Shown here piece after piece: positions 4,214 to 63,991 of a stretch of 64,000 bases of DNA. A program made the translations under genes and the position numbers. The notes beneath the pieces are model-generated. The model was given only the letters and a program-made list of their open reading frames with translations. It made no database searches and was not told the DNA's origin. Position 1 is the first letter of the stretch, and every line of letters starts with the position of its first letter. This DNA comes from Butyricimonas faecalis (GTDB taxonomy: Bacteria; Bacteroidota; Bacteroidia; Bacteroidales; Marinifilaceae): positions 2,480,001-2,544,000 of the forward strand of contig NZ_CP032819.1 in the NCBI RefSeq assembly GCF_003991565.1. Direction: 5' to 3'.

Positions 4214-5233
4214 TCAAAATAATACCTTCAACTGCTCTAAAAGTTCTTCAATAGTTTTTGCCTCGATTACAACTTTTCCATCACGACATATGCCGAATCC
4301 CGGAGTGGCCAGGTTGCCTGTTTCCACACATATGTCCGATACCACGTTACGATTGGCCAGAATACCATTACGCTGTAAGGCTTTCCGAGCCATGGCGTAC
4401 TTTTGACCATGACCCACAAGCTGAACTTGGGATGAATATTGATTTTCCACGCGGAACAATCCTGTCTCCATATCGAAAACAATCCCCTTGCGAGCGAAGA
4501 ATCCGCTTAAATGCCCCTCCAATGCCAAATCTTCCGGCGTGCCGATCGTGATGCCATGTTGACGATCCATGAGCCAGATTTTATCGGCAATCTGCAGAGC
4601 TAGTTCCAAATCGTGAGTAGAGAGGAAAATGGTCTTACCCGTTTCACGTGTCAACTGATGGAGTAATTGCATGATCTCCACCTTGCTTGGAAAATCCAAG
4701 AATGCCGTCGGTTCATCGAGAAAGATCACGGGTGTTTGCTGGGCCAGCGCTTTGGCAATCATCACTTTTTGGCGTTCCCCGTCACTGAGCGTGTGAACCA
4801 TGCGATCTGCCAGGTTCTCTATTTTCACGAGAGCGATTGACCGTTCAACAATTTCCCGGTCTTCCCCGCGCAACGTGCCCCAGAAGCCCGTGTAAGGACT
4901 ACGCCCCATCCCGATCAACTCCCGGGCCGTCATGTTCCGAACATCACATTTCTCCGTCAGCACCACTCCGATCGTGCGAGACAACTCTTTATCAGAATAT
5001 GTCTCGATCTCCCGGTCCATGATGTAGATCGCCCCTTCCAATTTCGGCTGAAATGCCGACAAGGTACGCAACAAGGTGGACTTCCCGACCCCGTTCGCTC
5101 CCAGCAGACAAGTGAGTTCCCCGCTATTAATCTCCGTACAAAGGCCACTGGCCACCACTTTCGTGTTGTTTTTCGCCTTGTAACCGATAGCTAAATTCTT
5201 TAACCGGATGGTCGCCTGTTTCTTGTTCTCCAT
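4214..5233 (-). CDS. btuD: Cobalamin ABC transporter ATP-binding protein, with C-terminal extension
   Basis: An ABC ATPase of the FecE/BtuD type. Walker A is GANGVGKST, the signature is LSDGERQKVMIAKALAQ, Walker B is VIFLDEPTAFLD, and the H-loop His is in LSTHD. At 339 residues it exceeds the usual 250-260; about 80 extra C-terminal residues (from about 258) carry no motif I can name. The neighbours are a FecCD-type permease and a binding protein on the same strand behind a cobalamin riboswitch, which fixes the substrate as a corrinoid. Family motifs alone could also mean an iron-siderophore. Confidence 0.9.
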   Translation of the reverse strand: MENKKQATIRLKNLAIGYKAKNNTKVVASGLCTEINSGELTCLLGANGVGKSTLLRTLSAFQPKLEGAIYIMDREIETYSDKELSRTIGVVLTEKCDVRNMTARELIGMGRSPYTGFWGTLRGEDREIVERSIALVKIENLADRMVHTLSDGERQKVMIAKALAQQTPVIFLDEPTAFLDFPSKVEIMQLLHQLTRETGKTIFLSTHDLELALQIADKIWLMDRQHGITIGTPEDLALEGHLSGFFARKGIVFDMETGLFRVENQYSSQVQLVGHGQKYAMARKALQRNGILANRNVVSDICVETGNLATPGFGICRDGKVVIEAKTIEELLEQLKVLF

Positions 5234-5257
5234 TACGATGTATGATTTACGACAAAT

Positions 5258-6304
5258 CTAAAATTCAACAGCATCTTTTCGTTTTCTCTTGCCAAATAAT
5301 ACCGAGGCCACAACAGGAGCACCGACGAGTGCCGTCACCGAATTCACGGGCAATGCCCCCTCAAATCCCGGCAAACGGGCAATCAAGTTACAAAGTAACG
5401 CCAGTGAAGCACCGACGAGCATGGCTGTCGGCATCAGAATCCGGTGATCGGATGTTTGAAAAATAGCACGACACAGATGTGGTACTGCCAGCCCCAGAAA
5501 GATAATAGGTCCGCAATATGCCGTTACGATAGCCGTCAATACCCCGGCACAAGTAATTACCCATACTCGGGCCCGGTGGATGTTCAACCCCAGGTTGCGG
5601 GCGTAACCGTCACCCAACATCAATAAGTTCAAGGGTTTGATCAACAAAAAGGATAGCGGTATGATAACGGCCATGATCGTGACAAACAACATCATCTGGT
5701 TACCCAATACCCGGGCGAAACTTCCCAATCCCCAGATCACGTACGCCTTTATGTCCTCTTCCACGCTAAAAAATTTCAACACCCCGATTACCGCGTTGGC
5801 AATGTACCCGATCATCACCCCGATAATCAACAAAGTCACACTACCCGCCACTTTCCGGGAGGCAAGAACAATCAATCCCATCACCGATAATGCACCCGCA
5901 ATGGCCGCAATCGACAGGGCGACCTCGCCGATAAAACCGAGGCGGCTCAATGCCACACCCCCCAATTGTCCGGAAAGCAGCACCACGAACGCGACACCGA
6001 GGCTTGCCCCAGAACTGATTCCCAGTACGGAGGGTCCGGCCAACGGGTTGCGAAAGATGGTCTGCATTTGCAAACCGCTAATCGATAACCCGGCCCCTGC
6101 TACCAAAGCCGTCAAAGCTTGTGGTAGGCGAGACTTCAGAATAATATTCTGCCAAGCGACCGGATCGCCTTCACCTCCCGTCAAGATATTCCAAACGGAA
6201 GCAAACGGGATGGACACCGATCCCAACAGTAGGTTCAATAACAGGAATACGATGATGGATGCCGTGATCACAAGAATGAGTATCGTATATTTACCTCTCT
6301 TCAT
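5258..6304 (-). CDS. btuC: Cobalamin ABC transporter permease (FecCD/BtuC family)
   Basis: A 348-residue, very hydrophobic protein with about ten membrane helices. FecCD landmarks include LPQALTALVAGAGLSISGLQ near residue 60, NPLAGPSVLGISSGASLG, and the cytoplasmic loop around GLAVPHLCR that contacts the ATPase. It forms the inner-membrane channel of the B12 importer. It lies between btuF (4-bp gap) and btuD (24-bp gap), so one transcript is likely, under the riboswitch at 7490-7657. Confidence 0.92.
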   Translation of the reverse strand: MKRGKYTILILVITASIIVFLLLNLLLGSVSIPFASVWNILTGGEGDPVAWQNIILKSRLPQALTALVAGAGLSISGLQMQTIFRNPLAGPSVLGISSGASLGVAFVVLLSGQLGGVALSRLGFIGEVALSIAAIAGALSVMGLIVLASRKVAGSVTLLIIGVMIGYIANAVIGVLKFFSVEEDIKAYVIWGLGSFARVLGNQMMLFVTIMAVIIPLSFLLIKPLNLLMLGDGYARNLGLNIHRARVWVITCAGVLTAIVTAYCGPIIFLGLAVPHLCRAIFQTSDHRILMPTAMLVGASLALLCNLIARLPGFEGALPVNSVTALVGAPVVASVLFGKRKRKDAVEF

Positions 6305-6308
6305 CAGA

Positions 6309-7460
6309 TTATTTCTTTAAAATGTCGTAGTAAACCGGTTCGTGGTCGGGAAGGATTTCCGGGTGAAACACCTTGATCATATCCGCCAGAACGATCTCTG
6401 GTTCGGCAGGCATACTCTCGTAAAACGGTTTCTGCCTCATGTTACAATAAATCACGTGTTTCTCCTTGAATGCCTTAAAATCTGCGTAACGTTCATCTTG
6501 TGCTTTCAGGGCATCATAACAATATTCTCCGGCAAAGCTATTCGCTATACGCCAGTAGTCGGCACTTTCCGCTTGATTGTACACGGTCTCGAAATCGAGG
6601 GTCACACCTCCTGAGCGGGGATCATCCTTCAAGAAATAATCCGCTCCCGCATCATGAAACAATTGTGCCAAAAAGCTTCGGCCACCCACGGCATACCATA
6701 CTCCTCCCCGCAATTCGCCACTGAACACAACGGGGCGACGTTTCACCTCACCCACCATCGCTTTCAAAGAATTATAGCGTTGCTCGATGCGGTCGAACTC
6801 CCGGTTAGCCACATCTTCCATACCCAGGAGTAATCCCACGAACTTGATCCACTCCGCCTGCCCCAGCGGTGTCATCTCCTTGTAACCCAAATGGGGAACC
6901 AGCGGGATGCCTATGTCCTTCACGGCATCATATCCCCCGCGCTTAAAGGGGGAAATCAGCATCAAGTCGGGATTGATACTCATGATGACCTCGTTGTCAA
7001 AATTCCCTTCGATACCGATGCGGAGAGTCTTCCCCTCCTCCACTCTTTTCTGCATTTCGGGGTTAAATAAGAAACGGGTACTCGTGATTCCCACGACCCG
7101 ATCTGTGGCTCCCAGTTTGATAAAGTTAGACAACTGCAATGAAGTCATGCAAATGGCACTCCTCACGGGCAATTGCACCACCGGCATATTCTCCGGGGGT
7201 TGTATATTCACGCCCCTCGGTATCAAAGCATATTGGTAATGAGTGTGACTGCTTTCCTGCGGGTCTTTGATATTTAACACCACGCACCCGTCACGTTCTT
7301 CCAACCAAAAGCCCTTAGCGTATTTAATGGAAATCCGGGAAACGGTATCGATTCCCTCACTCGTTTTTGGATCTCCCGATGATTGCTTGCGCGAAGCCGA
7401 TTTGCAACAAAGGAGAACACTACAAACACATAAAAGATAAAAAAAACGTACTACATTCAT
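6309..7460 (-). CDS. btuF: Corrinoid-binding lipoprotein of the B12 ABC importer
   Basis: A 383-residue solute-binding protein. It starts with a lipoprotein signal (MNVVRFFYLLCVCSVLLCC), so it is probably anchored to a membrane face. The fold is the cluster A-II/BtuF type: LSNFIKLGATDRVVGITST, then INPDLMLISPF and a C-terminal lobe. The ATG lies 30 bp downstream of the riboswitch. No BtuB receptor gene lies in this operon, so outer-membrane passage must be encoded elsewhere. A siderophore substrate is possible by family alone, but the riboswitch argues for cobalamin. Confidence 0.88.
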   Translation of the reverse strand: MNVVRFFYLLCVCSVLLCCKSASRKQSSGDPKTSEGIDTVSRISIKYAKGFWLEERDGCVVLNIKDPQESSHTHYQYALIPRGVNIQPPENMPVVQLPVRSAICMTSLQLSNFIKLGATDRVVGITSTRFLFNPEMQKRVEEGKTLRIGIEGNFDNEVIMSINPDLMLISPFKRGGYDAVKDIGIPLVPHLGYKEMTPLGQAEWIKFVGLLLGMEDVANREFDRIEQRYNSLKAMVGEVKRRPVVFSGELRGGVWYAVGGRSFLAQLFHDAGADYFLKDDPRSGGVTLDFETVYNQAESADYWRIANSFAGEYCYDALKAQDERYADFKAFKEKHVIYCNMRQKPFYESMPAEPEIVLADMIKVFHPEILPDHEPVYYDILKK

Positions 7461-7489
7461 CTCTTTTCCTCCGAAAGTATTAATTCATC

Positions 7490-7657
7490 GCGTCAACTGG
7501 CAGGTTTTCTGGCTTGTCATCTTTTCCCCTTCCCGGTTTCACCAGTGGTCTTATGAAAAGATCCGCCCATACGACGGAAAATGACTTTACAGCTGCGGGG
7601 ACAGCTCCGGAATTTCACCGGATTCCCTTTTCTTTCAACATGAAAGCACCAAGACGC
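7490..7657 (-). promoter_or_regulatory. Cobalamin riboswitch upstream of btuFCD
   Basis: Read on the minus strand, the aptamer has the core aagggaatccggtgaaa, then ctgtccccgcagctgtaa (the conserved L5 region), a variable arm, and gccagaaaacctgcc near the 3' end. P1 forms between gcgtcttgg (7657-7649) and ccagttgacgc (7500-7490). The btuF start is 30 nt beyond P1, so control probably acts on ribosome access. Cobalamin riboswitches repress when adenosyl- or methylcobalamin binds. Confidence 0.95.
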
Positions 7658-7660
7658 CTG

Positions 7661-7668
7661 CAAATATA
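7661..7668 (-). promoter_or_regulatory. Bacteroidetes -7 element for the btuFCD transcript
   Basis: On the minus strand TATATTTG fits the Bacteroidetes -7 consensus TAnnTTTG. It lies just before riboswitch P1, which places transcription start at the first bases of the aptamer. No good -33 TTTG is seen at 19-20 bp. Confidence 0.6.
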
Positions 7669-52464: not shown

Positions 52465-52760
52465 CTCTTTTTTCGGAAAAACTTTCCTTCTTTCAAAATT
52501 TAGCAACCCTTGAATCATCACGACCTATCCCCTCTTTCCAATTCCAACATAGGTTTGCAGTAGTCTCTTTTCAAGGTAATACACGCTCCACCCATGACAC
52601 ATTCGATGTACTTCGGGATTCACATTTCATTACAAAATCGTATATCATTAACGTGAGTTTGGTATAAAAATCACATTATCGCACGGAACATCAAGAATAT
52701 AACTGCACAAACATTAAACATGTATGACAGCACATTGGGAGCCACATAACTGCTGTTAAA

Positions 52761-52919
52761 ACAATAGAATTATACATCATTATCACTAGCGGATCAATTC
52801 CGGATATAAAGTTTTTAGTATGCTTATAAATCCCTATTAGAACGCTATTCCGTATAGCGTTTTAATAGCGTTCTAATAGCGCTTTAATAGCGCTTTACAC
52901 GGTAGTGGTCCGGATGCAA
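52761..52919. repeat. Repeat B, copy 2 (159 bp)
   Basis: About 93% identical to 30290-30448. The left arm ctattagaacgctat pairs perfectly with the second downstream unit (atagcgttctaatag) and with one G-T pair to the first, so alternative hairpins are possible. It ends 125 bp before the riboswitch P1 stem. Confidence 0.9.
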
Positions 52920-53043
52920 TCATGTTTCAATTATCATTTCGTGTACGAACTCGAACTTATGTTAGTTACTTCTGCGTTATAAGTCCATTAAAAAAATTAC
53001 AGAAAAAAAGTAGGAATACAATTATATTTATATACCTTCGCGA

Positions 53044-53222
53044 TGTCATGGTGATCTCTTTCCCCAGCAAGGGAAAAGATTGAATAGGGAATCCGGTGAA
53101 AATCCGGAACTGTGCCCTCAGCTGTAAGTTCTCAAAAAGGTTTTCGCATTCTAATGGTCACTTTTTCAACGAGAAAAGGGAAGGCCGCGAATACCGGAAC
53201 AAGTCAGAAGACCTGCCTGACA
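53044..53222 (+). promoter_or_regulatory. Cobalamin riboswitch upstream of the 4-hydroxybutyrate/butyrate operon
   Basis: The core aatagggaatccggtgaaaa, then ctgtgccctcagctgtaag (L5 variant), a peripheral arm ctttttc-aacga-gaaaag, gggaaggcc, and aagtcagaagacctgcc are all present in order. P1 forms between tgtcatgg (53044-53051, one bulged T) and cctgaca (53216-53222). abfD begins 367 nt beyond P1, a long leader. None of the downstream enzymes uses B12, so this fits control of a B12-independent alternative. Confidence 0.93.
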
Positions 53223-53319
53223 ACATATAAATCCGTTACTCTGGGGATTTGGGGTAAAGGAGATGTGCGAAGTTATTCATAAAAATAAAATTGTGTTGAC
53301 GTCCCCGTGACGGAACATT

Positions 53320-53592
53320 ATGAACAAAGGAGCATTACAACGTGAGTATATTTATACTGACGTAATCAATTCTTTTTCAACGAGAAAAAGAACATGTTTC
53401 TCTATAATGGCAACGAGAGACCGCGCGTGTTATCCCTTCAACGGCAAACATACGCTTCGATTTTCCGTGCCTTTTCTCTTCTCGCATTCTTTCCTTCAAA
53501 TTTCCCCCTGTAATAGCCCGCAGACGGCTTTTATTTACTGCATTTTTTCTTTATTCAAAATATTACAACTAACAAAATATCAAAGATCATGA
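53320..53592 (+). CDS. Possible leader ORF translationally coupled to abfD
   Basis: A 90-codon frame begins with ATG about 100 nt after the aptamer and ends in TGA that overlaps the abfD start as ATGA. The product has no signal, domain or known family and may not be a functional protein. Position and overlap suggest it could pass riboswitch control of ribosome loading on to abfD. It may equally be chance. Confidence 0.3.
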   Translation: MNKGALQREYIYTDVINSFSTRKRTCFSIMATRDRACYPFNGKHTLRFSVPFLFSHSFLQISPCNSPQTAFIYCIFSLFKILQLTKYQRS

Positions 53593-55052
53593 TGACAAAA
53601 GAACAGTACATTGAAAGTCTCAGGAAACTAAACCTGAAAGTCTATTTCATGGGAGAACTAATCAGTAATCCGGTCGATCACCCGATGATCCGCCCATCCA
53701 TGAATTCAGTGGCCATGACTTATGAATTGGCTGAAAAAGAGGAGTATCGAACGCTCATGACGGCTAAATCCAATCTTACCGGAAAAACCATTAATCGTTT
53801 TTGCCACTTGCATCAATGCACCGAAGACTTGATCAATAAGGTAAAGATGCAACGTTTGGTCGGGCAGAAAACCGGGGCTTGTTTCCAACGCTGCGTTGGA
53901 ATGGACGCCTTCAATGCCATTTACTCTACCACTTACGAAATCGACCAAGCTCACGGGACGGAATATCACAAACGTTTCACGGAGTACTTGAAATACGTGC
54001 AAGACAACGATCTCACGGTGGACGGGGCCATGACCGATCCGAAAGGAGATCGGGGTCTTTCTCCATCACAACAAGAGGATCCGGATTTGTATCTACGTAT
54101 CAAGGAAGTACGTCCGGATGGAATCATCGTTCGCGGAGCCAAAGCCCACCAGACGGGAGCTGTCAATTCCCACGAACACTTGATCATGCCGACCGTGGCC
54201 ATGAAAGAAGCCGATAAAGACTACGCCGTTTCATTTGCCGTTCCTTCTGATGCCGAAGGTGTACTCATGATCTACGGACGCCAGTCCTGCGATACCCGCA
54301 AAATGGAAAAAGATGCGGATCTTGACTTGGGGAACTCACAATTCGGCGGACATGAAGCTCTTGTGATATTTGACGATGTATTCGTTCCCAACGAACGCGT
54401 CTTTATGTGTAAGGAATATGAATTTACCGGCATGATGGTAGAGCGTTTTGCTGGTTATCACAGGCAATCTTACGGGGGATGTAAAGTCGGTGTCGGAGAT
54501 GTACTTATCGGGGCTGCCGCTCTCGCCGCCGACTACAATGGAGTCCCTAAAGCCAACCATATCAAAGATAAGATCATCGAAATGATGCACCTCAACGAGA
54601 CTCTTTACTCGTGTGGAATCGCTTGTTCGGCAGAAGGGAAACCCACGCTCGCGGGCAACTACCAGATTGATTTATTACTTGCCAATGTCTGCAAACAGAA
54701 CGTGACTCGTTTCCCGTATGAAATTGCCAGACTAGCAGAAGATATTGCCGGAGGATTAATGGTAACCATGCCTTCAGCCCAAGATTTAAGAGATCCGTAT
54801 ATCGGGAAATATGTAAAAAAATACCTGCAAGGGGCCACGGGTACTGACACGGAAAACCGGATGCGCGTTCTTCGCTTGATCGAGAACATCACGCTTGGGA
54901 CCGCGGCGGTAGGCTATCGCACGGAGTCCATGCACGGAGCCGGCTCCCCGCAAGCCCAACGCATCATGATTGCCCGGCAGGGAAACCTCGAAAGCAAAAA
55001 GGAGCTAGCGAAACAAATTGCCCGGATTGATGAAAGCAAGAACCGGAAATAA
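53589..55052 (+). CDS. abfD: 4-hydroxybutyryl-CoA dehydratase / vinylacetyl-CoA delta-isomerase
   Basis: A 487-residue FAD and [4Fe-4S] radical enzyme that converts 4-hydroxybutyryl-CoA to crotonyl-CoA. The four cluster ligands are visible: Cys98 and Cys102 in ACFQRCVGMDA, and His291 and Cys298 in YHRQSYGGCKVG, spaced as in the Clostridium aminobutyricum enzyme (99, 103, 292, 299). A second ATG at 53592 is possible. It leads an operon for converting succinyl-CoA toward butyrate, behind a cobalamin riboswitch. Confidence 0.96.
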   Translation: MMTKEQYIESLRKLNLKVYFMGELISNPVDHPMIRPSMNSVAMTYELAEKEEYRTLMTAKSNLTGKTINRFCHLHQCTEDLINKVKMQRLVGQKTGACFQRCVGMDAFNAIYSTTYEIDQAHGTEYHKRFTEYLKYVQDNDLTVDGAMTDPKGDRGLSPSQQEDPDLYLRIKEVRPDGIIVRGAKAHQTGAVNSHEHLIMPTVAMKEADKDYAVSFAVPSDAEGVLMIYGRQSCDTRKMEKDADLDLGNSQFGGHEALVIFDDVFVPNERVFMCKEYEFTGMMVERFAGYHRQSYGGCKVGVGDVLIGAAALAADYNGVPKANHIKDKIIEMMHLNETLYSCGIACSAEGKPTLAGNYQIDLLLANVCKQNVTRFPYEIARLAEDIAGGLMVTMPSAQDLRDPYIGKYVKKYLQGATGTDTENRMRVLRLIENITLGTAAVGYRTESMHGAGSPQAQRIMIARQGNLESKKELAKQIARIDESKNRK

Positions 55053-55350
55053 TCAAAACCCCACAACTCTGTGGAAGCACCTGGAGGAGATCATAAATAC
55101 ACACATTCGCCCTCTCCTCCAGGATCACGGGGGGGATGTTGTTATCCGGGAAGTCCGAGGGAAAGACGCGCGGGTGGCCCTACTCGGCAACTGCAAGGGA
55201 TGTCCCGCCGCACAGATCACGATTGAACAGACCGTGCAACGTATTCTCGTGGAAAAAATGGGAGATCAGATCGGTAAAGTAATACTGGTAAACGAAATAG
55301 ATCCCAGCATACTCGACTTCGCCCGCCAATTTCTCAACCCCCAAAAATAG
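55030..55350 (+). CDS. NifU C-terminal domain (Fe-S scaffold) protein
   Basis: A 106-residue protein consisting almost entirely of a NifU C-terminal domain: RPLLQDHGGDVVIREV and the CxxC in NCKGCPAAQ. The ATG at 55030 overlaps abfD by 23 bp; a TTG at 55018 is also in frame. It may deliver or repair the [4Fe-4S] cluster of AbfD, judged by position. As I recall, P. gingivalis has a NifU-related gene at the same place. Confidence 0.85.
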   Translation: MKARTGNNQNPTTLWKHLEEIINTHIRPLLQDHGGDVVIREVRGKDARVALLGNCKGCPAAQITIEQTVQRILVEKMGDQIGKVILVNEIDPSILDFARQFLNPQK

Positions 55351-55357
55351 AAAAACG

Positions 55358-56668
55358 ATGAACTGGAAAGAACTTTATACACAAAAAACGACCACTGCCG
55401 AAGAAGCGATCAAGGCCATCCGGGATAAGGATCGGGTTGTCTTTGCCCACGCGGCAGGTGTTCCGCAGGAAATCACGAAAGCCCTTGTTGCACATAAAGA
55501 TGATTTCCATGACGTGGAAATATACCACATGTTATGTCTTGGTGACGGAGCTTATACACAACCGGAAATGCTATCCCATTTTCGGCACAATACCAATTTC
55601 GTGGGAGGAAATACCCGACAAGCCGTGAACGAGGATCGTGCGGACTTCACCCCTTGTTTCTTTCACGAATTACCACACTTTTTCCGCAACGGGACCCTGC
55701 CCGTTGACGTGGCAATCGTTCATCTCAGCACACCGGACGAGGAAGGTTATTGTAGTTTCGGGGTGTCTTCAGACTACACGAAACCCGCGGCTCATGCCGC
55801 ACGCGTGGTAATTGCCGAAGTAAACGACCGGATGCCTCATGTCGGAGGCGATAACCACATTCACGTTTCGGAACTGGATTATATCGTGGAGACCTCCAAT
55901 CCCTTGTTTGAAATACCGCTGCCTAAAATCGGGGAAACGGAACAAGCCATCGGTCGGTACTGCGCGGAACTCATCGAGGATGGTTCCACCCTGCAACTGG
56001 GAATAGGAGCTATCCCCGATGCCGTTCTGCAATGCCTGCAAGACAAAAAAGATTTGGGTATTCACACGGAAATGTTTTCCGACGGGGTCATCGATTTGGT
56101 AGAAAAGGGGGTAATTACCGGAAAATGTAAAACCCTTCATCCGGGAAAACTGGTGGCCACCTTCCTCATGGGAAGCCAATGTCTGTATGATTTTGTTGAT
56201 AACAATCCCAATGTCGCTCTATTTCCCGTGGATTATGTAAACGATCCTTACGTTATTCGTCAGAATCGTCAATTAATATCCATCAATTCCTGCATCGAGA
56301 TCGATCTTTCCGGACAGGTTTGTTCCGAAACCATCGGTCCAAAACAATTCAGCGGGACGGGAGGCCAAGTTGATTACATCCGGGGGGCAGCTCTTTCCGA
56401 AGGCGGCAAATCCATCCTGGCCATGCCTTCCACGGCAGCCCGGGGAAAGGTTTCCCGTATCGTACCCTATCTGGCAGCAGGTGCCGCCGTCACCACCTCA
56501 CGAAACGAGGTGGATTATATTGTCACGGAATACGGGATCGCTCACCTCAAGGGGAAAACTTTAAGGCAACGAGCCGAAAGTCTAATTCGGATCGCTCATC
56601 CCGATTTCAGAGAATCGCTCACGGAGGAGTTCTTTCATCGTTTTCCATTAGCATTACAAACCATATAA
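55358..56668 (+). CDS. abfT: 4-hydroxybutyrate CoA-transferase
   Basis: A 436-residue family I-type CoA-transferase of the acetyl-CoA hydrolase/transferase group. LQLGIGAIPDAVLQ and the Glu in SCIEIDLSGQVCSE mark the active site, and GTGGQVDYIRGA lines the CoA pocket. It activates 4-hydroxybutyrate with acetyl-CoA or butyryl-CoA. It lies 7 bp after the NifU-like gene. Confidence 0.93.
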   Translation: MNWKELYTQKTTTAEEAIKAIRDKDRVVFAHAAGVPQEITKALVAHKDDFHDVEIYHMLCLGDGAYTQPEMLSHFRHNTNFVGGNTRQAVNEDRADFTPCFFHELPHFFRNGTLPVDVAIVHLSTPDEEGYCSFGVSSDYTKPAAHAARVVIAEVNDRMPHVGGDNHIHVSELDYIVETSNPLFEIPLPKIGETEQAIGRYCAELIEDGSTLQLGIGAIPDAVLQCLQDKKDLGIHTEMFSDGVIDLVEKGVITGKCKTLHPGKLVATFLMGSQCLYDFVDNNPNVALFPVDYVNDPYVIRQNRQLISINSCIEIDLSGQVCSETIGPKQFSGTGGQVDYIRGAALSEGGKSILAMPSTAARGKVSRIVPYLAAGAAVTTSRNEVDYIVTEYGIAHLKGKTLRQRAESLIRIAHPDFRESLTEEFFHRFPLALQTI

Positions 56669-56680
56669 AATGAAATAGTC

Positions 56681-57796
56681 ATGCAATTATTCAAATTAAA
56701 AACCCGTTTAAGTGAATTCAATTCTTTCGCGGACTTTGCCAAAGAATTCAATCTCAAGAAAGAAGATTTAATCATCACGAATGAATTCCTATACAATCCA
56801 TACATGCGTGATCTTCACCTTCCTTGTCGTTTTATCATGCAGGAACACTACGGAATGGGGGAGCCGTCTGACGAGATGATTAATCATATTCTCGCGGACA
56901 TAGAACTGGAAAATTATACCCGTGTGATAGCCGTAGGGGGAGGAACCGTCATTGACATCTCAAAACTATTTACTCTGCACGGCATCGTTAATGCAACTGA
57001 TGCTTTCGAACGCAAAATACCCGTTGAGAAGGCCCGTCAATTGGTGATCCTCCCCACTACCTGCGGCACCGGTAGCGAGGTAACCAATATTTCGATCGCC
57101 GAGATCAAATCCCGCCACACGAAAATGGGATTGGCCGATGACACCCTACTAGCCGATGATGCCGTGTTAATCCCTGAACTAGTGCGGGGGCTTCCCTACA
57201 AGTTTTTCGTGTGCAGTTCGATCGATGCCCTCATCCATGCCGTAGAATCATACGTATCCCCGAAATCCAATCCCTATACCCAAATATTCTGCCGGGCAGC
57301 TATCAAAAGCATTATTGATGTTTTCAAGCACATCGCTGCACAAGGACCGGAATATCGTCTGGAACATCTGAGAGAAATGCTGATTGCCAGTAATTATGCC
57401 GGCATTGCATTCGGGAATACCGGGGTGGGTGCCGTACACGCGTTATCCTACCCGCTTGGAGGAAACTATCACGTACCTCACGGGGAAGCCAATTATCAAT
57501 TCTTCACGGAAGTATTCAAGTTTTATTACAAGAAAAAGCCTTCCGGGAATATCACGGAAGTTAATGCGTTACTTGCGAATCTCCTGGGAACCGACACGAA
57601 ACACGTGTATGAAGAACTCGATTGCTTACTAGGCAAATTATTGTCCAAAAACCCTCTCCACACGTATGGTATGAAGCCCGAAGAGATTGACGGGTTCACG
57701 GACAATGTACTTCAGACACAACAACGCCTGTTGGCCAACAATCACGTGGAATTAACAAGAGAAGAAATAAAAGAAATCTATTCAACCCTATATTAA
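56681..57796 (+). CDS. NAD-dependent 4-hydroxybutyrate dehydrogenase (iron-type alcohol dehydrogenase)
   Basis: A 371-residue group III alcohol dehydrogenase. The NAD loop is VGGGTVIDISK, TTCGTGSEVTNISI follows, and metal ligands are Asp and His in IDALIHAVESY and the His residues in VHALSYPLGGNYHVPHGEAN. It reduces succinic semialdehyde to 4-hydroxybutyrate. The assignment to this substrate rests on the operon. Confidence 0.92.
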   Translation: MQLFKLKTRLSEFNSFADFAKEFNLKKEDLIITNEFLYNPYMRDLHLPCRFIMQEHYGMGEPSDEMINHILADIELENYTRVIAVGGGTVIDISKLFTLHGIVNATDAFERKIPVEKARQLVILPTTCGTGSEVTNISIAEIKSRHTKMGLADDTLLADDAVLIPELVRGLPYKFFVCSSIDALIHAVESYVSPKSNPYTQIFCRAAIKSIIDVFKHIAAQGPEYRLEHLREMLIASNYAGIAFGNTGVGAVHALSYPLGGNYHVPHGEANYQFFTEVFKFYYKKKPSGNITEVNALLANLLGTDTKHVYEELDCLLGKLLSKNPLHTYGMKPEEIDGFTDNVLQTQQRLLANNHVELTREEIKEIYSTLY

Positions 57797-57803
57797 ATAT
57801 ATC

Positions 57804-59159
57804 ATGGAAATAAAAGAAATGATAGAAAGAGCCCGCAAAGCTCAAGTCATTTATGACGAACGATTCGACCAGGAAGGAGTCGATCAAGTCATTAAAGCTG
57901 CCGCCCGCACGATTTTTGACCATGCAGAAGAACTGGCACGCCTTACGATTGACGAGACCCAAATGGGTGTCTACGAAGACAAAGTTGCCAAAAACAGGAA
58001 TAAATCCAAGGGGGTATGGTATAACCTGAAAGGGAAAAAATCCATGGGGATCCTAAGTATTGACGAGAGAACTAATCTTATCGAAATCGCCAAACCTATT
58101 GGTGTGGTTGCCGGTATTACCCCGATGACAAACCCCGTGGTTACCCCGATGTCTAAAATCATTTTTGCATTAAAAACGAAGAACGCCATCATCATAGCTC
58201 CTCACCCGAAAGCAAAACAATGCTCCAGTGCAGCTGTTAAACTCATTATCGAGGCCATCGCCCCGTTTGAAGTTCCGGAGGGTCTGGTTCAGGTGATTGA
58301 AGAACCCACGATCGAAAAGACCTGCGAGTTGATGGAAGCTTGTGATGTCGTGGTGGCCACGGGTGGAATGCCCATGGTGAAATCGGCTTACTCTTCGGGC
58401 AAACCCTCTTTTGGTGTCGGAGCGGGTAACGTACAGGTAATCCTGGATCGATTTATTGATTTCGATACAGCGGCAGAAAAAGTCATCACCGGCCGTTCTT
58501 TTGACAATGGTATTATCTGTTCTGGAGAACAAAGTTTTATTTATCACAAAGATGACAGACAGGAAGTCATGGACGCTTTTCGTCGTCACGGGGCGTACAT
58601 CGTGCCTGAAGAAGATCGGGACAAAGTGGTTAATGCACTTTTTGAAGACGGGCATATTTGCAGGGACATTGTCGGACAATCCGTCCAGACAATCGCAAGC
58701 AAAGCCGACATCTTCGTACCGGGAAACACCCGTGTTCTCGTGGTAGAAGCGCACGGGATAGGACGTGACGACCTCATCTGCAAAGAAAAAATGTGTCCTG
58801 TCATGGCTGCTTTTTCTTATGACAATTTTGACGAAGCGATAAAAATCGCCAAGACAAATCTATTCATGGAAGGAAACGGACACACGGCCGGCATCCACTC
58901 CAACAACCAGGCAAATATTATCAAGGCCGGAACGGAACTTTCCGTATCACGCCTGATCGTGAATGCCCCGTGTGCTACCACGGCGGGAGGTTCCATACAA
59001 AACGGTCTCCCCGTGACCAACACGCTCGGGTGCGGAAGTTGGGGAAATAATTCTATTTCTGAGAATTTCACCTATAAACACCTATTAAATATCACACGCA
59101 TCGCCCCGTTGTCCGCACGGATACACGTACCTTCCGATGCTGAAATATGGGATTTATAA
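57804..59159 (+). CDS. sucD: CoA-acylating succinate-semialdehyde dehydrogenase
   Basis: A 451-residue aldehyde dehydrogenase of the acylating (AdhE N-terminal-like) type. GVVAGITPMTNPVVTPMSK shapes the cofactor site, and the catalytic Cys is in NGIICSGEQS. It reduces succinyl-CoA to succinic semialdehyde, the entry step of the branch. It starts 7 bp after the dehydrogenase gene and is the last gene of the operon. Confidence 0.94.
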   Translation: MEIKEMIERARKAQVIYDERFDQEGVDQVIKAAARTIFDHAEELARLTIDETQMGVYEDKVAKNRNKSKGVWYNLKGKKSMGILSIDERTNLIEIAKPIGVVAGITPMTNPVVTPMSKIIFALKTKNAIIIAPHPKAKQCSSAAVKLIIEAIAPFEVPEGLVQVIEEPTIEKTCELMEACDVVVATGGMPMVKSAYSSGKPSFGVGAGNVQVILDRFIDFDTAAEKVITGRSFDNGIICSGEQSFIYHKDDRQEVMDAFRRHGAYIVPEEDRDKVVNALFEDGHICRDIVGQSVQTIASKADIFVPGNTRVLVVEAHGIGRDDLICKEKMCPVMAAFSYDNFDEAIKIAKTNLFMEGNGHTAGIHSNNQANIIKAGTELSVSRLIVNAPCATTAGGSIQNGLPVTNTLGCGSWGNNSISENFTYKHLLNITRIAPLSARIHVPSDAEIWDL

Positions 59160-59268: not shown

Positions 59269-59862
59269 ATGGACTTCAGTATCAATATAAAAGAAATATT
59301 CACCGCCTTTATGGTACTTTTCGCCGTGATTGACATCACGGGATCAACCCCCATTATCATCGGGTTGAATGATTCAGGAAAAAAAGTCAGTGCAGAAAAA
59401 GCCGCAGGAATATCTCTCATTATATTTATAGTATTTCTTTTCGCGGGGGACGGATTATTGAAACTATTCAACATCGACATTTCCTCCTTTGCCCTTGCCG
59501 GGGCATTGGTACTTTTCGTGCTCGCCATAGAAATGACCTTTAGTATCGAGATATTCAGAAATGATGGCCCGGAAGGTTCGGCAACAATCGTACCCGTCAT
59601 TTTTCCACTTATCGCGGGAGCCGGGGCATTAGCGACCACACTGACACTTAAATCAGAATGCAGTGTTTTTAGTATTATTATTGCCATTCTTCTTAACATG
59701 ACTGTCGTCTATGTTGTTTTACGTAACGTCTATTTAGTAGAACGGGTTCTCGGAAAAGGTGGCGTTTACATCCTACGAAAATTCTTTGGCATCATTCTAC
59801 TTGCCATGTCTGTAAAAATTTTCGCATCCAATTTAAACGCGCTGCTGGCAACTCTATCTTGA
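59269..59862 (+). CDS. MarC family integral membrane protein
   Basis: A 197-residue protein with six predicted membrane helices. FAVIDITGSTPIIIGLN at the N-terminus and IPVIFPLIAGAGALATTL-like VPVIFPLIAGAGALATT in the middle are the MarC signatures. The family was once linked to antibiotic resistance; its function is unknown. It lies between the two riboswitch-controlled units. Confidence 0.9.
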   Translation: MDFSINIKEIFTAFMVLFAVIDITGSTPIIIGLNDSGKKVSAEKAAGISLIIFIVFLFAGDGLLKLFNIDISSFALAGALVLFVLAIEMTFSIEIFRNDGPEGSATIVPVIFPLIAGAGALATTLTLKSECSVFSIIIAILLNMTVVYVVLRNVYLVERVLGKGGVYILRKFFGIILLAMSVKIFASNLNALLATLS

Positions 59863-59960: not shown

Positions 59961-59968
59961 TACATTTG
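59961..59968 (+). promoter_or_regulatory. -7 element for the nrdDG transcript
   Basis: TACATTTG matches TAnnTTTG, 5 bp before the riboswitch P1 stem. No clear -33 TTTG is seen. Confidence 0.55.
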
Positions 59969-59972
59969 TCTA

Positions 59973-60130
59973 GATTTTGGTTCCTTCAAGAGGGATTAAA
60001 AGGGAATCAGGTGGAAATCCTGAACAGTCCCGCTGCTGTGAGTTTCACTCAACGATTCAAGTATCATATAGCCACTGTTTTCAATGGGAAGGCACTTGAT
60101 CGGGAACAAGTCAGAAGACCTGCCAAGATC
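59973..60130 (+). promoter_or_regulatory. Cobalamin riboswitch upstream of nrdDG
   Basis: aaaagggaatcaggtggaaa, cagtcccgctgctgtgag (L5), a variable arm, tgggaaggc and aagtcagaagacctgcc appear in order. P1 forms between gattttggt (59973-59981) and gccaagatc (60122-60130) with G-T pairs. Upstream bases 59863-59960 hold only AT-rich sequence. Repression of nrdDG by B12 fits organisms that also have a B12-dependent class II reductase. Confidence 0.94.
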
Positions 60131-60160
60131 AGAGGTTTCAAAGGCTTTCGAGGAAAAAGC

Positions 60161-60276: not shown

Positions 60277-62484
60277 ATGATTCAGACAGTTGTAAAAAGG
60301 GATGGCCGGGTTGTCGGCTTTAATGAAGAGAAAATCATTGCAGCCATTCGCCGGGCAATGCTCCACACGGCACAGGGAGAGGACATGGAATTAGCATCCA
60401 CCATTGCCGACCGAATTGCCTATCGAGGAGCTGAACGGATGACCGTGGAAGAAATACAAGACCATGTAGAGATCGAACTCATGAAAAGCCGCAGAAAAGA
60501 TGTGGCACAATTATATATCGCTTATCGGAACCAGCGGAGCATTGCGCGCAAAGCAAAGACGAGAGATATTTTCCTGGAAATTATCGAAACAAAATCCAAT
60601 GACATTACCCGGGAAAACGCTAATATGAACGCGGACACCCCGGCAGGAATGATGATGAAATTTTCCAGTGAAACGACCAAACCTTTTGTCGACGACTACC
60701 TGTTAACCGAGGAAGTAAAAAACGCCGTTCGCCAAGGCTACCTACATATCCATGACAAAGACTATTATCCCACGAAAAGTCTCACCTGCGTGCAACACCC
60801 GTTGGATAAAATTCTGAAAAACGGATTCTTTGCCGGACACGGGGAATCACGTCCGGCCAAACGTATAGAAACTGCCAGTATCCTTGGATGCATCTCCTTG
60901 GAAACCGCCCAAAACGAAATGCATGGAGGACAGGCTATTCCTGCTTTCGACTTTTATCTGGCTCCTTACGTACGCTCGAGTTTTATAGAAGAAGTCAAAG
61001 TACTGGAAGAGTTATACGGAGAAAACTATAACCATCTTTATCACATTGAAATCTCGGACTACATGCCACGAGAACTGACAGGATTGACCGGAGAAGAAAG
61101 AGTTCTACAACACGCTATCAATCGCACGGTGAACCGGGTACATCAATCCATGGAAGCTTTTATTCATAACATGAACACCATCCATAGCCGGGGTGGTAAT
61201 CAGGTCGTCTTCAGTTCTATCAACTACGGCACGGACACTTCTGCCGAAGGACGTTGTGTCATTCGAGAGTTGTTGCGTTCTACCTACCGGGGAGTGGGTA
61301 ATGAAGCCACGGCAATTTTCCCTATTCAAATCTGGAAAAAGAAAAGAGGGGTAAACTACCTTCCGGAAGATCCGAATTACGATCTATATGAATTCGCATG
61401 TAAAGTTTCCGCACGTCGTTTTTTCCCGAATTTCATAAACTTGGATGCCACTTTCAATCAACACGAAAAATGGAGAGCTGATGACCCGGAACGATTCCGT
61501 TATGAAACAGCCACCATGGGATGTCGCACCCGTGTATTCGAGAATCGTTTCGGAGAAAAAACTTCTATCGGACGTGGGAATCTTTCTTTTTCTACGGTAA
61601 ACATCGTTCGACTTGCCATCGAATGCATGGAGATAAAAGACGAGACCGCTCGGGTGGAAACGTTCTTTTCAAAACTGGATGAAATACTCGATTTAACAGC
61701 TTTACAACTGCACAAACGCCTGGAATTCCAAAAAACAGCCCGGGTAAAGCAATTTCCCTTACTCATGTCTTCTCTTTGGTTGGGTAGTGAAAAATTGGGA
61801 CCGGATGACACCATCGAAAGTGTCATTAACCAAGGAACTCTAGGAATCGGCTTTATCGGCCTGGCCGAATGTCTGGTTGCTCTAACCGGTAAACATCATG
61901 GAGAAGATGCCAAGGCACAGGAACTCGGCCTGCGCATCGTATCGCACATTAGAGATAAGGCAAACGAGTACTCGGACAAATATCAGCACAATTACAGTGT
62001 ACTTGCCACTCCAGCCGAAGGGCTTTCCGGGAAATTTACCGCAAAAGACAAGAAAAGTTTCGGTATCTTACCGGGAATCACGGATCGGGAATATTACACG
62101 AATTCCAATCACGTGCCCGTGTATTATAAATGCAGTGCCCGCCATAAAGCCGAAGTAGAGGCTCCCTATCACGACTTGACCCGGGGTGGTCATATTTTCT
62201 ATGTCGAAATAGACGGGGATGCCACTCACAATCCGAGCACGATCATGTCAGTTGTCGATATGATGGATCGATACAACATGGGTTATTGTTCCGTGAACCA
62301 CAACCGGAATCGTTGTATGGACTGCGGTTTCGAAGATGCTTCGGCACATTTGGAAGCTTGTCCGAAATGCGGAAGTACAAACATTGACCGCTTGCAAAGA
62401 ATTACCGGTTATCTGGTAGGTACCACGGACCGCTGGAATCATGCAAAACTAGCAGAATTAAACGATCGGGTAAGACATGACTAA
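60277..62484 (+). CDS. nrdD: Anaerobic (class III) ribonucleoside-triphosphate reductase
   Basis: A 735-residue glycyl radical enzyme. Residues about 1-90 form an ATP-cone (VVKRDGRVVGFNEEKI). The core includes IHDKDYYPTKSLTC and GGQAIPAFDFYLAPY. The C-terminus has four zinc-type cysteines (CMDCGFED, CPKCGS) and the glycyl radical region RITGYLVGTTDRW. It makes deoxynucleotides without oxygen and without B12. nrdG overlaps its end by 8 bp. Confidence 0.96.
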   Translation: MIQTVVKRDGRVVGFNEEKIIAAIRRAMLHTAQGEDMELASTIADRIAYRGAERMTVEEIQDHVEIELMKSRRKDVAQLYIAYRNQRSIARKAKTRDIFLEIIETKSNDITRENANMNADTPAGMMMKFSSETTKPFVDDYLLTEEVKNAVRQGYLHIHDKDYYPTKSLTCVQHPLDKILKNGFFAGHGESRPAKRIETASILGCISLETAQNEMHGGQAIPAFDFYLAPYVRSSFIEEVKVLEELYGENYNHLYHIEISDYMPRELTGLTGEERVLQHAINRTVNRVHQSMEAFIHNMNTIHSRGGNQVVFSSINYGTDTSAEGRCVIRELLRSTYRGVGNEATAIFPIQIWKKKRGVNYLPEDPNYDLYEFACKVSARRFFPNFINLDATFNQHEKWRADDPERFRYETATMGCRTRVFENRFGEKTSIGRGNLSFSTVNIVRLAIECMEIKDETARVETFFSKLDEILDLTALQLHKRLEFQKTARVKQFPLLMSSLWLGSEKLGPDDTIESVINQGTLGIGFIGLAECLVALTGKHHGEDAKAQELGLRIVSHIRDKANEYSDKYQHNYSVLATPAEGLSGKFTAKDKKSFGILPGITDREYYTNSNHVPVYYKCSARHKAEVEAPYHDLTRGGHIFYVEIDGDATHNPSTIMSVVDMMDRYNMGYCSVNHNRNRCMDCGFEDASAHLEACPKCGSTNIDRLQRITGYLVGTTDRWNHAKLAELNDRVRHD

Positions 62485-62995
62485 CACGATTACATTATTG
62501 GATATTATTGAAGATACCGTTGTTGATGGACCCGGATTCCGGGTATCCGTCTACGCGGCGGGTTGTTCCCATCATTGTCCGGGTTGCCATAACCCGCAAT
62601 CCTGGAACTTACGGAACGGTCACCCGGTTCCTTTGGATTATATTATAGCGAAAATCACAAATAATCCCTTCTCCAACGTAACATTCAGTGGAGGAGATCC
62701 GCTATTTCAAGTAGAGGGTTTCACGCGACTGGCCCAACGCCTGAAAAGCACCACGTCCAAAAACATCTGGTGCTACACGGGCTTCCGTTACGAAGAAATC
62801 ATTAGCTCCAAACGGCTTTCTCAAATCCTGCCTTATATAGATGTTTTAGTCGACGGACGATTCGATCCGACCAAACGGAAAGAAGGACTCCTCTTTCGGG
62901 GAAGTTCCAACCAAAGATTGATAAACGTTCCCGCCTCGCTTCGTTCGGGAAAGGTTATCCTCTGGGAATACAATCCATATCCCCAATACGTTTGA
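62477..62995 (+). CDS. nrdG: Anaerobic ribonucleotide reductase-activating protein (radical SAM)
   Basis: A 172-residue radical SAM enzyme. The cluster motif is CSHHCPGCHN (CxxxCxxC within), preceded by VDGPGFRVSVYAAG, and FSGGDPLFQ follows. It generates the glycyl radical on NrdD. The 8-bp overlap with nrdD fits tight co-expression. Confidence 0.96.
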   Translation: MTNTITLLDIIEDTVVDGPGFRVSVYAAGCSHHCPGCHNPQSWNLRNGHPVPLDYIIAKITNNPFSNVTFSGGDPLFQVEGFTRLAQRLKSTTSKNIWCYTGFRYEEIISSKRLSQILPYIDVLVDGRFDPTKRKEGLLFRGSSNQRLINVPASLRSGKVILWEYNPYPQYV

Positions 62996-63011: not shown

Positions 63012-63620
63012 ATGTATACACTCACGCACCATATTGTCTCACTCCCGACTTCACAATACATTCAGGAGTTTCGTGATCCGGAAAAGTTCATTTCTTTCTG
63101 CCGGCAATGTGAACGCTATAATCGTTGTTGGGCCTGCCCGCCTTTTGAGTTTAACACGGACGAATATCTCTCCGGTTATCAACAAACGTACATCATCGGG
63201 ACTAAAATAACATTCGATACGGCAACACGCGACTCCTGCACGACATTAGAAGAACACAAAACAATTTCCCTCCAAACCATAGAATCCGTCCGAAAGATCA
63301 TCGATCCACGGCTATTGACTCTTGAACATGAATATTCCGGTAGCCGGGCCTTTTATGCAGGGACCTGCCATTTATGCCCCAAAAACACGTGTACCCGAAT
63401 AAACGGGCATCCCTGTCTCCATCCTCAAGAAATACGCCCATCCCTTGAATCCGTCGGGTTTGACATCAGCAAAACAACCTCTGAACTCCTTCACATTGAA
63501 TTACAATGGAGTAACGATGCCCATTTACCGGAATACCTTACCCTCGTAAGTGGCCTTTTCACGAAAGAGAGTGCCTACGCCCCGATTTCCACCAGGATCT
63601 CGTCTTTACTCACGGTTTGA
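63012..63620 (+). CDS. DUF2284 metal-binding protein
   Basis: A 202-residue cysteine-rich protein. Cysteines occur in CRQCERYNRCWACPPFEF and later in CHLCPKNTCTRINGHPC, the pattern of the predicted metal-binding DUF2284 family. The function is unknown. It lies 16 bp after nrdG and may share its transcript. Its 3' end overlaps the convergent biotin-carrier gene by 46 bp. Confidence 0.82.
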   Translation: MYTLTHHIVSLPTSQYIQEFRDPEKFISFCRQCERYNRCWACPPFEFNTDEYLSGYQQTYIIGTKITFDTATRDSCTTLEEHKTISLQTIESVRKIIDPRLLTLEHEYSGSRAFYAGTCHLCPKNTCTRINGHPCLHPQEIRPSLESVGFDISKTTSELLHIELQWSNDAHLPEYLTLVSGLFTKESAYAPISTRISSLLTV

Positions 63621-63991
63621 CCGGCAATCACACATACCCGGTGAACCCGTCCTTTTTGAGAAGCAACAATGACATTCTGCATTTTCATTGCCTCAAGCAC
63701 AACTAGGGTGTCTCCCTTGTTAATCTCCTGTCCTACTTCTATCGACACGTCCAGAATTTTTCCCGGCATAGGAGATTTAATGGTTATATCGAAGATTTCA
63801 CTCTGTCGGCCTGCCAATAATCTTTTCCGATTCAAAGAAAAGGGAGTTTCCACCGAAAAAGTATAAGCCACCCCATTAAGTAAAATCTCGTATTCATTCT
63901 GTCGGCGAGACACGATTTCCACCGGGTAGCGAATCCCCTTGTACAATAGGATCAAAAAACCATCTGCCTCCTCGACTAAGTCAATACGCAT
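63575..63991 (-). CDS. Biotin carboxyl carrier protein of an acyl-CoA carboxylase/decarboxylase
   Basis: A 138-residue protein whose C-terminal 75 residues are a biotinyl/lipoyl domain with the attachment lysine in LEAMKMQN. SPMPGKILDVSIEVGQEI is typical of carriers of propionyl-CoA carboxylase or methylmalonyl-CoA decarboxylase rather than AccB. The ATG at 63991 is 9 bp from the window edge, so partner subunits would lie just outside. The full-length gene is probably inside the window. Confidence 0.83.
   Translation of the reverse strand: MRIDLVEEADGFLILLYKGIRYPVEIVSRRQNEYEILLNGVAYTFSVETPFSLNRKRLLAGRQSEIFDITIKSPMPGKILDVSIEVGQEINKGDTLVVLEAMKMQNVIVASQKGRVHRVCVIAGQTVSKDEILVEIGA

Follow-up and report, generated by a model that had tools for sequence, protein, structure and literature searches.

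Control of the B12-independent gene metE by cobalamin riboswitches has been described for genomes that also have the B12-dependent enzyme (PMC9600662, available part). Isozymes form one of four classes of cobalamin riboswitch targets in PMC3766115, and neither 'butyr' nor 'succin' occurs in the accessible main text of that paper. In Xylanibacter ruminicola, B12 decides between propionate and succinate through methylmalonyl-CoA mutase; in the available part of that report (PMC11575231), no riboswitch lies near the propionate genes, riboswitch-adjacent genes respond strongly, and butyrate is not made. The succinate-derived butyrate pathway is designated P2 in PMC9403272. The main text of that article, as far as it is accessible, nowhere contains the word 'riboswitch', and its table gives other pathway combinations for Odoribacter and Butyricimonas. 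Here we describe a cobalamin riboswitch ahead of the abfD operon of Butyricimonas faecalis, whose enzymes are the same as those of the Porphyromonas/Tannerella succinate (4-hydroxybutyrate) pathway to butyrate. The locus lies in a stretch of 64,000 nt (NZ_CP032819.1, positions 2,480,001 to 2,544,000), hereafter the window, and positions without a genome label are counted within it.

The first-pass annotation of this DNA had held the link between riboswitch and abfD to be possibly new. The link itself is in print for Tannerella, where one sentence in the available text of PMC7160235 gives it, with 'adenosylcobalamin biosynthesis' in brackets, and where the transcripts are more abundant in periodontitis; for Porphyromonas, the same text places a riboswitch ahead of a hypothetical protein. 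The RNA-gene link in that text is identical to ours, and it comes without a pathway reading or a comparison across Bacteroidota. What stands of the novelty is the pathway-wide pattern of aptamers, which was not found in the literature searched (most subscription papers lay outside it), where just PMC7160235 gives the aptamer-abfD link. A cobalamin riboswitch has also been placed ahead of PGN_0704 (PMC3764172, partial text). Five such riboswitches per P. gingivalis strain are given in the accessible part of PMC5771137, which credits the description to Hovik et al.; the leader of P. gingivalis abfD was possibly described there earlier.

The RNA at 53031-53234 on the plus strand belongs to the cobalamin riboswitch family, and corrinoid binding is predicted for it. 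It matched RF00174 over the full length of the model (1-189 of 189) in cmscan with 95.2 bits and an E-value of 2e-22, the gathering score being 31.5 bits. This bears out the riboswitch that had been read from the letters, with a slightly wider extent than the start at 53044 then proposed. The abfD ATG follows at 53589, after a spacer of 354 nt. The coordinates of the open reading frames (ORFs), their Pfam domains and their solved relatives also confirm the tight succession abfD-nifU-abfT-4hbD-sucD that had been claimed. On the plus strand, abfD (53589-55052) encodes 4-hydroxybutyryl-CoA dehydratase (849.6 bits and E 5e-255 against 1u8v; Pfam HpaB domains) and is overlapped by a gene for a NifU-like domain protein (55018-55350, PF01106). 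Next come abfT for 4-hydroxybutyrate CoA-transferase (55358-56668; 3eh7, 649.2 bits), 4hbD for an iron alcohol dehydrogenase family member that is likely 4-hydroxybutyrate dehydrogenase (56681-57796; 30sm (Cvir-Hbd2), 380.9 bits; PF00465) and sucD for CoA-dependent succinate-semialdehyde dehydrogenase (57804-59159; 8cei, 490.1 bits). Residues C98, C102, H291 and C298 of AbfD align with C99, C103, H292 and C299 of 1u8v, which we take to be Fe-S ligands. None of the five products reaches the curated cut-offs of NCBIfam. The gene of a MarC-family membrane protein (59269-59862, plus strand, PF01914) likely belongs to the operon, because relatives place marC either 3' of sucD or between the aptamer and abfD.

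An aptamer leader on the succinate-to-butyrate operon is real and widespread in Bacteroidota, as many abfD leaders carry the element when scanned with the Rfam cobalamin model. A protein scan gave 110 relatives, of which 80 were retained as abfD loci from named genomes: 43 from Bacteroidota, with which L068 was grouped for want of a phylum label, and 37 from other phyla. With L047 and L063 excluded for too little upstream DNA, 41 Bacteroidota loci were readable. In 26 of these an aptamer lies upstream of abfD, as indicated in each by a B12 box and by an RF00174 match whose coordinates agree with it; in the remaining 15 a direct RF00174 scan found none. No aptamer was found at the 37 loci of other phyla, 35 of them readable (L086 and L095 have less than 100 nt upstream), L082 and L084 being scanned directly and the rest checked by B12-box search and genome coordinates. 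L038, L051 and L082 were dropped as aptamer-abfD neighbours after negative cmscan results at these loci. Within the window's own family abfD occurs in 4 of 56 genomes, each time with an aptamer ahead of it (4/4). A genus search of Porphyromonas, around P. loveana and with eight genomes in common with the first set, found abfD in 20 of 26 genomes. Twenty loci were scanned and 19 were readable (of one broken gene, L243 was kept and its latter half, L242, excluded); an aptamer stands 244-745 nt ahead of abfD in 15 of the 19, and the leaders of P. loveana and P. circumdentaria showed none in that search. Because in many genomes just a portion of the first-look candidates was scored in the genome-wide RNA searches, the aptamer counts are lower bounds. 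The arrangement is unlikely to have arisen by chance, because the 4.98-Mb B. faecalis genome has just 14 RF00174 matches, all above the gathering score, and because the arrangement recurs in so many genomes.

Both subunits of methylmalonyl-CoA mutase are encoded in the B. faecalis genome, with no aptamer near them, and 40 of 47 genomes searched gave a mutase match. The mutase is present in 29 of 30 genomes with an abfD aptamer vs. 9 of 15 without one (45 readable leaders; Fisher p 0.0035, or 0.009 when the 1.1-Mb genome G056 is left out), fragments being scored as present (G060, G061) and the association being weakened by shared ancestry and incomplete metagenome-assembled genomes.

These arrangements suggest that B12 probably represses the abf operon and that a shortage of the vitamin would open the route from succinate to butyrate. 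Binding of adenosylcobalamin to the 53031-53234 RNA would switch off the operon that leads from succinyl-CoA towards crotonyl-CoA. With B12 present, methylmalonyl-CoA mutase would be active and succinyl-CoA could go to propionate. With B12 absent, the mutase would stop, the RNA without its ligand would permit expression of abfD-nifU-abfT-4hbD-sucD(-marC), and succinyl-CoA and reducing power would then flow by way of crotonyl-CoA to butyrate. The operon would thus be handled as metE and nrdDG are, namely as a substitute that needs no B12, but here a pathway would be replaced and a different end product would result. As in the control of those isozymes, the aptamer stands ahead of a B12-free alternative and the B12-dependent enzyme for the same substrate is co-encoded, here as both mutase subunits; unlike the isozymes, the abf enzymes (dehydratase, CoA-transferase and dehydrogenases) form another route to another end product. 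B. faecalis resembles X. ruminicola in being a Bacteroidota anaerobe with a mutase branch, but here it is the competing branch that bears the riboswitch. If this is true, one vitamin would gate both succinyl-CoA branches, through the mutase cofactor and through an RNA, and a fermentation branch would join the isozymes among the targets of cobalamin riboswitches. The propionate and butyrate that Bacteroidota make are important to hosts in the gut, rumen and gum pocket, among which the B12 supply varies, and how this supply affects acid output could be tested directly in cultured species, e.g. Odoribacter splanchnicus.

The remaining aptamers bear on the direction of control. In the B. faecalis genome they precede TonB receptors, surface lipoproteins, ABC-type uptake genes and nrdDG, and a class II ribonucleotide reductase is encoded elsewhere in the same genome. 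Uptake genes, nrdDG and metE are classical OFF targets of cobalamin riboswitches. By analogy, an OFF switch at abfD fits the uptake genes, nrdDG beside a class II reductase, and a metE-like gene in genome G048 described below. The same co-targets speak against a B12-activated (ON) switch or a sensor of another corrinoid state, which we judge very unlikely. In favour of such an RNA, non-classical mechanisms are mentioned in the accessible part of PMC11575231.

Aptamers were also found on further genes of pathway type. Among Bacteroidota aptamers not linked to abfD, 98 of 100, in 33 genomes, were followed for up to 5.5 kb downstream (two, in G065 and G078, were omitted, and some stretches end early at contig ends). 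When each aptamer is assigned by its best query match with a start no more than 1.2 kb behind it, 43 lead to TonB, uptake, lipoprotein or CbiK-like genes, 7 to nrdD, 4 to abfT and 1 each to bcd, marC and an accC-like gene. Among the ORFs behind the 41 unmatched aptamers are further nrdD-like genes, numerous genes for surface proteins, and others without evident B12 link; at L143, L154, L169, L171, L178, L181, L193 and L198 the aptamer is followed by a longer gap and then by genes of the last kind. L139 has an aptamer, bcd-like-etfBA, a second aptamer, marC and abfD in this order, and both aptamers were confirmed in L036. An aptamer precedes abfT-like and marC genes at L130 and L136, an abfT-like gene at L129 (where the contig ends) and L162, marC at L204, and a 1066-aa ORF followed by abfT-like and marC genes at L192. 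Two scanned abfT-like proteins came nearest to butyryl-CoA:acetate CoA-transferase and the bcd-like proteins scored best with acryloyl-CoA reductase, in both cases below the cut-off; we infer the exact reactions of these proteins from their neighbourhood.

The most telling arrangement is that of G048 (presumed Odoribacter splanchnicus), where a B12-free methionine-synthase-like gene leads into genes of crotonyl-CoA-reductase type. An aptamer there precedes abfD-nifU-abfT-4hbD-sucD-marC-DUF2284, and next in order, on one strand, come a pair of aptamers and then metE-like (a short gene with PF01717 that exceeds the cut-off of NCBIfam PRK06520), bcd-like, etfB and etfA. A divergent aptamer faces mmdA-like and accC-like genes with a biotin-carrier-like gene, and a second bcd-like copy lies elsewhere in G048. 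For O. splanchnicus the available part of the literature gives acetate, propionate and succinate as major products and butyrate as a small one, with lysine alone among amino acids enabling butyrate. The B. faecalis genome, too, has the expected genes of crotonyl-CoA-reducing type (bcd-like, etfB and etfA). Taken together, the loci suggest a B12-bypass regulon in Bacteroidota, to which we would give an even chance: riboswitches would have been gained piecewise over the abf operon, abfT-like/marC and bcd-like-etfBA, and in some genomes over candidate succinate exporters as well as an acyl-CoA carboxylase. A single vitamin signal would then govern these genes, and B12 supply would set how much three-carbon acid is made relative to four-carbon acid by the communities of gut, rumen and mouth.

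The exporters and the carboxylase come from the surroundings of the window. One aptamer of the B. faecalis genome precedes a pair of AspT-family and ThrE-family genes (G000:C1:2548744-2551792; PF06826 and PF06738/PF12821), putative succinate exporters by analogy with SucE1 and YjjPB, which we take to be exporters of these types. Another aptamer (G000:C1:2547270-2547453) heads an operon of mmdA-like, accC-like and biotin-carrier genes (G000:C1:2544105-2547147 and, on the minus strand of the window, 63575-63991 for the biotin-carrier-like protein at its end, PF00364). This operon stands under an aptamer also in G009 and G048, and behind an AspT gene in G027 and G032 (loci L222, L216, L219 and L220). 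As an alternative, B12 might repress the abf operon because this branch serves as an electron sink, or removes succinate or other metabolites, at times when the mutase does not run; the propionate-to-butyrate ratio would then hardly track the vitamin. This explanation, which we regard as improbable, gains from the putative exporters and the carboxylase, which are not butyrate genes, and from a second butyrate route in B. faecalis. The genome's own bcd-like-etfBA genes adjoin lysine 5,6-aminomutase genes, and a B12-dependent route from lysine to butyrate is therefore likely, as judged from gene content. The earlier view of butyrate as simply the B12-free product is accordingly not upheld, and a choice of 'propionate or butyrate' is too simple for this genome. 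Against the electron sink, bcd-like-etfBA and abfT-like genes carry separate aptamers in other genomes.

Conserved structure in the leader bears on whether the aptamer at abfD has a function. The L5 loop (TGCCCTCAG) lies at 53113-53121 and the B12 box (AAGTCAGAAGACCTGCC) at 53201-53217; a putative P13 hairpin lies at 53236-53257, its stem drawn by eye and its pairing and covariation computed. CTGGGG at 53241-53246 in this hairpin is complementary to CCTCAG of L5, and a kissing loop is possible. In 29 parsed leaders (L028 was not parsed) a segment able to pair with the L5 loop lies 20-35 nt past the B12 box, and the partners covary: CCTCAG goes with CTGGGG, and CGCG with CGCG. Complementarity averaged 12.84 vs. 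11.26 (maximum 12.62) in 200 random re-pairings, a modest margin among leaders that are related. TGGGGA and then ATGTGCG are conserved in the four family leaders, and the rest of the spacer is mostly divergent. Ten of the 14 genome aptamers lie within 96 kb that include the window (G000:C1:2472553-2568606), and the aptamer could on that account be a functionless hitch-hiker of a B12 gene island. We find this highly improbable, as the arrangement recurs in many genomes and the loop pairing has been maintained through compensating changes.

The long leader between aptamer and abfD (53235-53588) contains a doubtful ORF of 90 aa (53320-53592), which stops 4 nt inside the abfD start. It is open in three family leaders with equal length and equal 4-nt overlap, and shuffling gave such an open frame by chance in about 0.4-0.5%. 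Between L025 and L026, 15 of 24 changed codons are non-synonymous, and the ORF is missing from L028 and from the leaders of other groups; for these reasons it is not claimed as a leader peptide. A short ORF, MIITSRII or variants of it, occupies the same place past the L13 hairpin in seven rumen-type leaders (L030, L032-L035, L039 and L072). The aptamer might govern a leader element of this kind, a short ORF or small RNA, while most abfD transcription would start at a separate promoter within the spacer. The length of the spacer and the two kinds of ORF are in favour of this, but the altered residues and the patchy occurrence of the 90-aa ORF speak against it, and we consider it improbable. A terminator scan of 52600-53650 gave a single terminator-like site, within abfD, with 0.7 expected, and none in the spacer. 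A search of 53200-53640 for other RNA families (E-value cut-off 1) returned just the 3' end of the aptamer and one sub-threshold match on the minus strand. The predicted fold of 53218-53600 is mildly stabler than shuffled sequences (z -2.1; equalled by 3 of 100) and puts the L13 region in pairing with a downstream C-rich tract; we do not rely on this fold.

Several observations weigh against repression of the abf operon by B12 as the basis of a propionate-butyrate choice. The spacer is long, with no terminator or second known RNA found in it, and the aptamer would have to act on abfD over some 170-360 nt (at L031, L036, L064 and L231 the distance is 578-819 nt). Nine of the 15 aptamer-free abfD loci sit in mutase-bearing genomes, and the aptamer-free leader of P. 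loveana counts here as well. The bcd-like-etfBA genes of B. faecalis itself have no aptamer, and the bcd-like proteins score best with acryloyl-CoA reductase, below its cut-off, which makes crotonyl-CoA a presumed substrate. The aptamer on the mmdA-like/accC-like operon does not fit a simple B12 logic. In the accessible part of PMC5807917, P. gingivalis abfD (PG0692) has the values -0.92, 12.35 and 0.26, which we take to be the log2 change, the mean expression and p; these indicate high expression and no significant change between pocket and culture.

The window contains two further aptamers. One (59961-60141, plus strand, 110.1 bits) lies ahead of nrdD and nrdG for the class III (B12-free) ribonucleotide reductase and its activase (60277-62995, plus strand; NCBIfam NrdD and NrdG above cut-off). 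The other, found by cmscan at 7482-7668 on the minus strand, precedes three minus-strand genes (4214-7460) that by eye are periplasmic binding protein-, permease- and ABC ATPase-like. Elsewhere in the genome, the aptamer L022 (G000:C1:3295407-3295589, minus strand) has no same-strand ORF of at least 80 aa close behind it and lies among plus-strand genes; it is possibly an orphan or antisense element. A DUF2284 metal-binding-type gene adjoins B12-regulated genes in two genomes, at 63012-63620 of the window and at 9773-10363 of L215.

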